Source: Hyphomicrobiales bacterium (lineage in GTDB: Bacteria > Pseudomonadota > Alphaproteobacteria > Rhizobiales > Methyloligellaceae). From it: a stretch of DNA of 36,855 nucleotides. The notes beneath the pieces are model-generated. The model searched no databases. It was not told the DNA's origin and was given only the letters and a program-made list of their open reading frames with translations. The DNA lies in NCBI GenBank assembly GCA_028280515.1, contig JANQLP010000154.1, positions 1 to 36,855 of the forward strand. The letters run 5' to 3'. Below are positions 19,508 through 21,813 of this stretch, one piece after another. Position numbers and translations under genes: made by a program. The stretch's first letter is position 1. Every line of letters begins with the position of its first letter.

Positions 19508-19581
19508 GGCCACGTGGCGGAGTGGTTACGCAGCGGACTGCAAATCCGTTTACCCCGGTTCGATTCCGGGCGTGGCCTCCA
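19508..19581 (+). tRNA. tRNA-Cys (GCA anticodon), host of the island insertion
   Basis: A complete 74-nt cloverleaf can be drawn. The acceptor stem is GGCCACG/CGTGGCC with discriminator T and an encoded CCA (19579-19581). The D arm contains AGTGGTTA. The anticodon stem GCGGA/TCCGT holds the loop CTGCAAA with GCA at 19540-19542. The T arm is CCCGG-TTCGATT-CCGGG. The last 17 nt are part of a 25-bp sequence repeated at 21320-21344, so the functional 3' end was either kept or regenerated when the neighbouring element inserted. Confidence 0.97.
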
Positions 19582-19589
19582 AAACCGAC
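19565..19589 (+). repeat. attL-like direct repeat at the 3' end of tRNA-Cys
   Basis: Left copy of a 25-bp perfect direct repeat. It starts in the 3' strand of the T stem, includes the acceptor strand and CCA (19565-19581), and continues 8 nt past the gene with AAACCGAC. Tyrosine recombinases of integrative elements typically target exactly this part of tRNA genes. Confidence 0.88.
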
Positions 19590-19629
19590 ACACTAAGTGT
19601 CCGGCGTGCCGTTTTCTTCACCGCTCCGT

Positions 19630-19659
19630 TTGCCCGTATTTAATTACTACTCCTAGTAT
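19630..19659 (+). promoter_or_regulatory. Candidate promoter of the KAP NTPase gene
   Basis: Within the element and 37 nt ahead of the start codon, TTGCCC (19630-19635) and TAGTAT (19654-19659) are separated by 18 bp in a locally AT-rich stretch, resembling -35 and -10 boxes. A GGGAAG Shine-Dalgarno follows before the ATG. The match is modest and unproven. Just left of it are two short palindromic motifs, ACACTAAGTGT and CGGCGTGCCG. Confidence 0.4.
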
Positions 19660-19695
19660 CAAGGAGAAGCGGGCTAAGAGTCGGGAAGCGAACCG

Positions 19696-21255
19696 ATGTC
19701 AGACGAGACTGGAACCCAACAAAACGCAACACCGGTCAAAGACGAAGATATTTGGGATGACGACCTTCTCGGGAGGGAGGCGGACGCCAACTTCCTGATC
19801 GAGTTCTTGAAGAACCGAATCGAAGAACGCAGAGCGGTAGGTCTAAGCAAGTCGTATGTCCTAAACATTGATGCAGCGTGGGGCCAAGGCAAAACGTTTT
19901 TTCTTCAACGACTGCGACAACAATTGGAAGCAAATCAGTTTCTAGTTGCTTATGTGAATGCTTGGGAAGATGACCACGCGGACGACCCGCTTGTCGCCGT
20001 CATAGCGTCTCTAGATTCTGTTATCGAGGCGAACTTCGCCAGAGATAGCCCCCTTGTGTCGGCGTGGACAGCGGTGCGGAAATACGGTCTCGAGATTGCT
20101 GTAACCGGGGCGAAGGGCGCGCTCGTCACTCTCGCAAAGAGAGCGTTCGGAGAGGGCTTCGATGAAATTAAGGAGATTCTCGATCAGCCGGACAACTCGC
20201 AACACGAAGACGTGGATGCGGAGGTAGCAGCCGAAAAAGGCGTAGGCGAAGAAATGTTGGAGGGTGCAGAAGTTTCAGTAGGCAAATTTCTCGACAAAAA
20301 AGCAGAAGGGCTCATTGGCGACTTCAGGAGGTCCAAGGCGTCGATTAGTCGATTTCGAAACGACTTGACCGCGCTACTGGCGGCACTTGAAGAGGAAGGA
20401 AAGACGCCGCTCCCGTTTTTCGTACTAATCGATGAGCTGGATCGTTGCAGGCCAATGTATGCGATAGCCCTTTTGGAGCGCATCAAACACCTATTCGAGG
20501 TGGACAACATCGTTTTCATCATTGCAACTGATAGCCCGCAATTGCGCTCATCGATTAAGGCTGTTTACGGGTCAGATTTTGATAGCGGACGCTATCTGCT
20601 CCGATTTTTCGATCGCTCATACGTTTTCGAGAAGCCGTCATATGAAGCGTTTGTGGCATATCATTTTAAGTTGCAAAACATAGATGCATCGATCCTCTCA
20701 TCGCCCCCGGATACTGATGCTCAATCCTTTTTTGTCGAAACGATGAGTCAATTGAATTTGAGCCTGCGAGACGCTGAGCAATGCCTCGACATACTCCGCA
20801 ACATATTGACGATGTGGCCGCATCAAACCGAAGTGCAACTCATTTATCTTTTGCCTTTGATCGTCGCATTCCAACAAGGATGGTCTGAGCTATTCAGTGC
20901 ACTAGCGACACGAGACAGAACGCAGCTTCTGGAACTTCAACAAACTCTGGATTTCAAAAAATGGCGCATTTCGTACGACGATCCCACACCCCAATTACCG
21001 GATCGTACCTCAAACCTGGAAGTGTTGAACATTCTGTCAGAGAGAATCGTGGATCGTTTAGGCCAGCCGCTTCCCGCAGTTGCCGGAATTCAAGCGACTG
21101 AAGACCGAATACTGCGATGGTTCTCGGAACAGGCCCGAAACGAACTTAAAATGGTTCATGGCACTTACGATCATGAGAATCCGCCGAAGAGCATTCTTCT
21201 GAGCTACCCGCAATTGGTTAGAAATGCAGGACGTTTGATCAAGTCAGCTAAATAG
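19696..21255 (+). CDS. KAP family P-loop NTPase (lone cargo of a tRNA-Cys island, possible anti-phage factor)
   Basis: STAND-related P-loop NTPase of the KAP family, 519 aa. Walker A is AWGQGKT (residues 61-67) after the family-typical VLNIDAAWG. YVNAWEDD (87-93) is the conserved KAP segment. Walker B is FFVLIDELDRCRP (241-253), followed by a sensor-like FIIATDSPQL. The usual transmembrane insertion between Walker A and B is replaced by a region (about 110-235) with only one weakly hydrophobic stretch (GLEIAVTGAKGALVTLAKR) and acidic low complexity, so the protein may be soluble or membrane-peripheral. KAP members include PifA, which excludes phage T7 from F-plasmid hosts; a defence role here is inference. 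Codon use and G+C differ from the neighbours, consistent with horizontal transfer. Confidence 0.9.
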   Translation: MSDETGTQQNATPVKDEDIWDDDLLGREADANFLIEFLKNRIEERRAVGLSKSYVLNIDAAWGQGKTFFLQRLRQQLEANQFLVAYVNAWEDDHADDPLVAVIASLDSVIEANFARDSPLVSAWTAVRKYGLEIAVTGAKGALVTLAKRAFGEGFDEIKEILDQPDNSQHEDVDAEVAAEKGVGEEMLEGAEVSVGKFLDKKAEGLIGDFRRSKASISRFRNDLTALLAALEEEGKTPLPFFVLIDELDRCRPMYAIALLERIKHLFEVDNIVFIIATDSPQLRSSIKAVYGSDFDSGRYLLRFFDRSYVFEKPSYEAFVAYHFKLQNIDASILSSPPDTDAQSFFVETMSQLNLSLRDAEQCLDILRNILTMWPHQTEVQLIYLLPLIVAFQQGWSELFSALATRDRTQLLELQQTLDFKKWRISYDDPTPQLPDRTSNLEVLNILSERIVDRLGQPLPAVAGIQATEDRILRWFSEQARNELKMVHGTYDHENPPKSILLSYPQLVRNAGRLIKSAK

Positions 21256-21270
21256 TAGGGGGTCGAATTT

Positions 21271-21304
21271 GGCCGGAGGCGCTTGGAAGCGAGGGGCTCC
21301 GGCC
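21271..21304. terminator. Nested inverted repeat at the right end of the island
   Basis: An 8-bp arm GGCCGGAG (21271-21278) pairs perfectly with CTCCGGCC (21297-21304). Inside it a second hairpin, CGCTT-GG-AAGCG (21280-21291), can form. It begins 15 bp after the KAP stop codon and ends 15 bp before the right repeat. No T run follows, so it is either a factor-assisted terminator for the KAP transcript or a structural end of the element. Confidence 0.45.
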
Positions 21305-21319
21305 TTCGCCCAAAGCAAC

Positions 21320-21344
21320 TCCGGGCGTGGCCTCCAAAACCGAC
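21320..21344 (+). repeat. attR-like direct repeat (duplicate of the tRNA-Cys 3' end)
   Basis: Right copy of the 25-bp perfect repeat; identity stops at both ends (19564 T against 21319 C, 19590 A against 21345 G). It contains the tRNA 3' 17 nt including CCA but no preceding tRNA body, as expected for the displaced target half after site-specific integration. It ends 3 bp before the stop codon of the convergent PGPGW-type gene. Confidence 0.88.
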
Positions 21345-21347
21345 GCT

Positions 21348-21614
21348 TCAGGGCCTCGTGTCGCCCGCACCGTTGCCGCCATTGCCGTTACCGCGCCGCC
21401 GGCCCCACCACACTTCGAGCCGCCGCCGCCAGCGGCGCACAATCGGCAAATCGACCGAAAGAACCAGCAGGCCAAGCGGGATCATCCAGAACCCGAGGAC
21501 GGGAAGAAAGCCGAGCAGTCCGCCGGCAATGAGCGCCAGGCCCAACGCCATGCGGATCAGCCGCGAGCGGGGAAGTTCGAATTTCCAATTACCAAGTCTG
21601 ATTTTCGCGGACAT
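21348..21614 (-). CDS. Small membrane protein resembling the PGPGW family
   Basis: The start at MSAKIRLGNWKFEL gives 88 aa. The frame is open further upstream, but those 65 codons read as cysteine- and arginine-rich noise. Two hydrophobic helices (MALGLALIAGGLLGFLPVLG and MIPLGLLVLSVDLP) are joined by a tight turn, followed by a basic tail PIVRRWRRRLEVWWGRRR and a glycine/asparagine-rich end. The helix-turn-helix with P-x-L-G-F and IPLGLLVLS resembles the PGPGW family of putative two-helix membrane proteins, with PVLGFW in place of the name-giving motif. Function is unknown. Its 3' end abuts the island's right repeat, so the insertion fell just outside the gene and left the stop codon intact. 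Confidence 0.75.
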   Translation of the reverse strand: MSAKIRLGNWKFELPRSRLIRMALGLALIAGGLLGFLPVLGFWMIPLGLLVLSVDLPIVRRWRRRLEVWWGRRRGNGNGGNGAGDTRP

Positions 21615-21813
21615 GGGAAAAGGCCCGATTTGGTTTCTCGCGCAGTGACATCGCCTTATTCGTACGCAGATGCAACGCATTTGGGTTGCCGGACCGCAGG
21701 AGACAATGACCGCGTGAAACGAGGTTGTGAAAAAGGTGCGTTTCTTGCTCTGGAATGATGCGAACGCATTTGCTATAGCGGGTGCGGCTTGCGCGCCTGA
21801 GAGGTGCACGCAT

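Follow-up and report, generated by a model that had tools for sequence, protein, structure and literature searches.

According to the portions of the four reports cited in this paragraph, CIMEs are elements whose integration and transfer genes have been lost while attL and attR remain (PMC5704250), and 15 of the 31 Dehalococcoides islands at ssrA, being without an integration module, were interpreted as possible CIMEs (PMC3146451). Defence-bearing islands at tmRNA genes, which were recently captured, keep their integrase (PMC12595487). The Islander survey rejects candidates without an integrase and those shorter than 2 kb, and the same report describes subsites of integration within tRNA genes, among them the junction of the T and acceptor stems (PMC4383910).

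The segment considered here, which we refer to as the KAP segment, lies in a window (the whole stretch of DNA analysed) of 36,855 nucleotides. Like CIMEs, it has attL and attR in the form of repeats and is without integration or transfer genes. Unlike CIMEs and the Dehalococcoides ssrA islands, it consists of one gene in 1,755 bp, it is not in tandem with another element, and no ICE or IME with the same ends was found. When compared with the islands of the Islander survey, as outlined in the cited part of that report, the KAP segment likewise has an intact tRNA gene and a displaced 3' fragment in the correct order and orientation, and its short core fits the T-stem/acceptor junction type, but it has no integrase and, at 1,755 bp, stays below the length of at least 2 kb. 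The tRNA-Ser islands of two other genomes (G179 and G379) also hold a KAP ATPase between repeats of a tRNA 3' end, but they are 7-8 kb long, carry their own integrase and occupy tRNA-Ser instead of tRNA-Cys. PICI-like phage satellites possess their own integrase together with helper-interaction genes; the KAP segment, with its single gene, does not match this description. Since CIMEs and integrase-less ssrA islands have been described, the principle is already known, and what is unusual about the KAP segment is its small size and its single defence-type gene.

A one-gene segment between 25-bp repeats at tRNA-Cys

On the forward strand of the window, ARAGORN identified a tRNA-Cys (gca) gene at 19508..19581, the last 17 nt of which, together with 8 further bases, form a 25-bp attL-like repeat (19565..19589) that restores the tRNA gene. 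This repeat is followed on the same strand by a left non-coding end of 106 bp (19590..19695), the gene of a KAP-family P-loop ATPase of 519 aa (19696..21255), a right non-coding end of 64 bp with the G+C-rich inverted repeat GGCCGGAG..CTCCGGCC (21256..21319) and a second, attR-like copy of the 25-bp repeat (21320..21344), which corresponds to the displaced 3' end of tRNA-Cys. The next ORF (21348..21809) lies on the reverse strand, and its counterpart adjoins tRNA-Cys in relatives with an empty site. The name PGPGW, given to this neighbour in the original prediction, could not be upheld, as the ORF had no match in Pfam (E up to 0.001) or in NCBIfam (E up to 0.01).

The two repeat copies (19565-19589 and 21320-21344) are identical at 25 of 25 positions and are spaced 1,755 bp apart, precisely as had been predicted. 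They form the longest exact direct repeat in the 36,855-nt window, in which the runner-up measures 14 nt, and a chance origin was ruled out by 50 order-2 Markov simulations, where the longest repeat averaged 15.7 nt and reached 19 nt at most. Throughout the genome (5.41 Mb in 253 contigs), the 17-nt tRNA part occurs exactly twice, both times at this locus. The second copy is a tRNA 3' fragment in the same orientation, situated at the far edge of the segment and running 8 bases beyond the tRNA. The core begins within the T stem, on its 3' strand, and the left and right copies are preceded by different bases.

The composition of the segment is foreign to its surroundings: the G+C content inside the repeats is 0.503, compared with 0.573-0.671 in other 1,730-bp windows and about 62% in the flanks, and the GC3 value of the KAP gene is 0.53, compared with 0.68-0.79 in nine other genes of the window. 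The KAP ATPase gene is the only long ORF between the repeats, and collapsing the repeats in silico leaves 11 nt from tRNA-Cys to the stop codon of the neighbour gene. The lower G+C content, the single KAP gene and the tight junction of the original prediction were thereby borne out, as was the lack of an integrase: no integrase relic was detected in the segment ends or elsewhere in the window with 13 queries at E 0.01 (one of them, L012, is not an integrase ORF). A comparison of the two segment ends for arm-type repeats yielded a single common 8-mer, judged near chance, and a scan for promoters and terminators revealed no excess. The right end folds somewhat better than its shuffles (z -2.5).

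The insertion site in related genomes

A key question is what occupies this position in related genomes. Of the 52 relatives that gave a match, the 29 with the best scores were inspected at their tRNA-Cys loci, in some cases over longer stretches. The neighbour gene lies 3' of tRNA-Cys in 20 of these 29 relatives; in the other nine, G016 among them, it was not seen there in the stretch used for the count. The site is empty in 13 of the 20 linked relatives (13 of the 29 inspected), including G001 of the same genus: the distance from tRNA-Cys to the end of the tblastn match of the neighbour gene is at most 150 nt, and there is no KAP gene. A genome-wide search covered nine of these 13 relatives, and the exact 17-mer is single-copy in all nine. 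The search for the KAP gene in 60 relatives returned one weak match. Judged from these sequence comparisons, the KAP segment is an insertion at tRNA-Cys, in line with the original prediction; that the insertion is recent, as was also proposed, would follow solely from the 25 identical bases.

In the other seven linked relatives (loci L050, L053, L054, L040, L026, L036 and L021), the same spacer is occupied by different genes (0.55-2.9 kb), and a second full repeat is absent, which indicates that genes have also arrived by other routes, making the spacer a spot of gene acquisition independent of att recombination, or that the repeats have decayed. At L036 (G018; about 2.2 kb), an insert of 0.6 kb has, close to its distal edge, 12 nt that match part of the tRNA-Cys end, CGGGCGTGGCCT, perhaps a decayed attR or a chance match.

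The KAP ATPase and its relatives as mobile cargo

The 519-aa product matches the Pfam family KAP_NTPase (PF07693) at E 7.5e-32, which agrees with the KAP NTPase of the original prediction. The PADLOC profile PDC-S20 matches residues 9-416 of the 519 (E 3.1e-87), that is, most of the protein, as is expected of a candidate defence protein of this type, and there is a further match to PHROG 8614, a phage family of unknown function. Residues G63, G65 and K66 of Walker A and the DELDR motif at 246-250 are invariant when 14 homologues are aligned; the gene is intact, and on account of these residues the ATPase looks functional. Its KAP P-loop domain is common to PDC-S20, PHROG 8614, QatA and PifA. 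The QatA profile of NCBIfam gave 46 bits against a cut-off of 600, which makes the protein distantly QatA-like only, and no qat partners are present in the segment, since no other long ORF lies inside it. A search of the PDB by sequence returned nothing at E 0.01. The predicted structure has a mean pLDDT of 73, and its best PDB matches are to RdrA of RADAR (E 2e-4, query TM-score at most 0.41), a likeness of the model that is too weak for assigning a mechanism. Taken at the level of profile matches, the gene probably encodes an anti-phage ATPase with a candidate defence role.

At E 1e-20, the KAP family is present in 33 of the 397 genomes of the order, the source genome included, and in 26 of 141 genera. 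The flanking loci were studied at the best 20 of the 35 listed places outside the source genome and at one from Jiella. Two of these 21 loci are integrase-bearing tRNA-Ser islands of 7.9 and 7.0 kb, in which the KAP gene is found near the distal att end (these are the islands of G179, locus L096, and G379, locus L105); at the other 19, no tRNA-bounded island was found in the fetched stretch, and several of the contigs are short. Near both ends of the island in L096 (8219-8247 and 15904-15956), there are GTTACACAGTAAG-type direct repeats that look like integrase arm sites.

The closest relative found is a lone KAP gene in G099 (L090, 8621-10409), for which no tRNA and no flanking repeat were found; the gene beside it is presumably imuA-like. 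The congener G253 (L126) is without the KAP gene, and part of a gene is also missing there. A single-gene insertion of KAP in G099 is doubtful, as the difference between these two genomes looks like a deletion in G253.

Viral contigs searched by a single KAP sequence gave no relatives; in the alignment search, 314 stretches were found to encode KAP relatives, and the best 80 of them, representing 79 loci, were kept. Nine of the 79 kept loci hold an integrase recognised by 10 queries, with the integrase match 15-83 bp from the KAP match in three and at least 1.2 kb away in the others. The three close cases (L165, L198 and L200) involve tyrosine-integrase matches and represent a recurrent integrase-KAP pairing. 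Five viral loci contain a tRNA gene, and in none of the five was a repeat of the tRNA 3' end found.

tRNA-Cys as an integration site and the search for a parent element

Integrase-bearing elements at tRNA-Cys were found in three other genomes (G016, G030 and G358), and in this group tRNA-Cys does serve as a site of integration. In G016, which belongs to the same family as the source genome, a Phage_integrase gene (Pfam E 2.5e-9) directly follows tRNA-Cys, at the same spot as the KAP segment; the start of another contig of this genome carries a tRNA-Cys 3' fragment, then the neighbour gene and then tRNA-Asn, and the two contigs are not joined. The elements of G030 (16.1 kb) and G358 (12.4 kb) are phage-like, and their integrases are 64% identical to each other. 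In all three genomes, the core is about 45 nt or more and reaches towards the anticodon. Such cores are longer than the T-stem core of the KAP segment, so these elements are not of the parent type, and the parent was probably of another type.

Within the order, 91 of 397 genomes contain the exact 17-mer, four of them in two copies, namely, the source genome, G030 (16.1 kb), G358 (12.4 kb) and G105 (4.5 kb). With one mismatch allowed, 229 of the 397 genomes match, and no further close pair is present among the matches listed; six further genomes with two same-strand matches were searched again, and no same-contig pair closer than 3.5 Mb was found. The class-wide search for attR, in which 385 genomes were scanned with a pattern covering two spellings of the tRNA-Cys end, matched two genomes, the source genome and G555. 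The latter was rejected as an extra attR, being a plain tRNA-Cys with another T loop. An integrase-bearing parent with a short T-stem core at tRNA-Cys was thus found neither in the 91 of 397 order genomes with the exact 17-mer nor, for the two spellings, in the 385 genomes of the class. Two core patterns (same ends or attP) had no match in viral contigs, and the check, proposed along with the original prediction, for further elements in which these ends enclose different cargo yielded none.

One additional case concerns G105, a genome of another family (76% complete). On its 5.4-kb contig (L111), a copy of the 17 nt of tRNA-Cys lies 4.49 kb downstream in the same orientation, and this second copy has the same start base and the same preceding AAC as that of the KAP segment. 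The genes in between were assigned by eye to an IS3-like fragment, a metallo-hydrolase, a MarR-type regulator, a 492-aa exported protein and a HAD phosphatase, and no ORF was recognised, again by eye, as an integrase. In the comparison with G064 of the same family, the right flank is unmatched, so that no empty site was seen. As a second integrase-less insertion at tRNA-Cys, the G105 segment is a lead only.

The source genome itself has eight tyrosine-recombinase matches, seven of them above the cut-off. By eye, two look like a XerC/XerD pair, given their similarity and an aroK/aroB-like neighbourhood, and two, which we take to be of the P4 type, share about 30% identity with the integrases at tRNA-Cys in G030 and G358; at L011 and L012, no ORFs were resolved. 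No tRNA gene was found in the fetched stretches (7.9-19.9 kb) around the eight matches, and the genome has no other exact core, so the resident integrase island at tRNA-Cys that the original prediction proposed looking for did not emerge. On contig C148 of this genome (L016), there is an integrase that is 37% identical over 234 aa to the integrase of the KAP island of G379; its C terminus looks unrelated, and it perhaps belongs to a broken element.

Discussion

The explanation that we favour, with moderate confidence, is that the KAP segment is a CIME-like, att-bounded remnant of an ordinary tRNA island, reduced to one gene after loss of the integrase. A mobile element would have entered tRNA-Cys at its 3' end through recombination by a tyrosine integrase, probably with the crossover at the junction of the T and acceptor stems, by which the tRNA-Cys gene would have been restored and its displaced 3' end left behind as attR. 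This junction, and not the T loop or the anticodon, is suggested by the start of the core in the T stem and by the differing bases that precede it, provided that the right copy has not drifted. Everything else in the element, including the integrase, would then have disappeared, in the simplest case through one deletion after which the cargo gene lay beside attR: in an island like those at tRNA-Ser, a single deletion beginning close to attL and ending shortly before KAP would produce the present structure, i.e., a remnant composed of attL, the KAP ATPase gene and attR, with both att sites kept. Against this explanation speak the failure to find a parent with this core in the searched spellings of the order and class or, with two core patterns, in viral contigs, the lack of an integrase relic in the segment ends, and the seven linked relatives in which other genes occupy the spacer. 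The original prediction had offered a deletion derivative and a satellite mobilised in trans as alternatives. We prefer the former because KAP relatives ride integrase-bearing islands and because tRNA-Cys receives integrase-bearing elements; for the satellite, G105 alone can be adduced, and against it stand the absence of another core copy in the genome and of a match to two core patterns in viral contigs.

It is conceivable, if rather unlikely, that the segment was born minimal, as a non-autonomous element with a single cargo gene that never had an integrase and on which a helper integrase acts in trans. Its compactness would suit such an origin, the joined attP amounting to 195 bp (106+25+64) and thus approaching the ~250 bp mentioned for an attP in the cited part of the Islander report (PMC4383910), and the integrase-less 4.5-kb segment in G105, with its identical start base and AAC in another family, might be a counterpart. 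That segment, however, comprises several genes as well as, judged by eye, an IS3-like fragment, and the comparison with G064 did not reveal an empty site for it. Moreover, neither a helper with the same core, whether in the source genome, in the searched spellings of the order and class or in viral contigs, nor another element that combines these ends with different cargo came to light. In the literature, nothing fitting was found on tycheposons or on single-gene elements that borrow an integrase, which is not proof of absence, and the parts of PMC9122126 and PMC11476347 drawn on here held nothing useful on KAP genes or tRNA-Cys.

Quite unlikely, in our estimation, is homologous or illegitimate recombination that carried the tRNA-Cys 3' end over from a donor in which KAP lay upstream of a tRNA-Cys fragment. 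Insertion by such another route would be in keeping with the seven relatives in which different genes (0.55-2.9 kb) fill the spacer in the absence of a second full repeat, and with the lone KAP gene of G099, which has neither tRNA nor flanking repeat and is missing in the congener G253. On the other hand, the second copy is a tRNA 3' fragment that keeps its orientation, marks the distal edge and is extended by 8 bases, which is the signature of site-specific integration, and in G253 the KAP gene seems to have been deleted together with part of a gene. A misjoin of the contig at the repeat would be highly improbable: the contig measures 36.9 kb in an assembly of 253, but a 25-bp repeat is short for such an artefact, and on either side the genes are arranged as in relatives such as G001.

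If the KAP segment is the remnant of an island, its retention of both att sites means that an integrase arriving with matching specificity might in principle excise the segment or carry it along, and any remaining mobility would at most be through such a foreign integrase, possibly in trans. A broader proposition, which we regard as unlikely, is that integrase-less tRNA cassettes of one to a few genes form a real and overlooked class of mobile elements borrowing foreign integrases, with the KAP segment and the G105 segment as two examples at one site. Such cassettes would have gone unnoticed because island surveys of the Islander kind accept only candidates with an integrase and a length of 2 kb or more, and segments like the present one would consequently be left out of its count.

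The KAP segment thus represents a clean and very small att-bounded example without an integrase, carrying one intact candidate defence gene. Its 25-bp core and the empty site make the mobility of the cassette directly testable. If it is true that the integrases of other elements move such segments, single defence genes could travel as cassettes that are hidden by an integrase-and-length filter.
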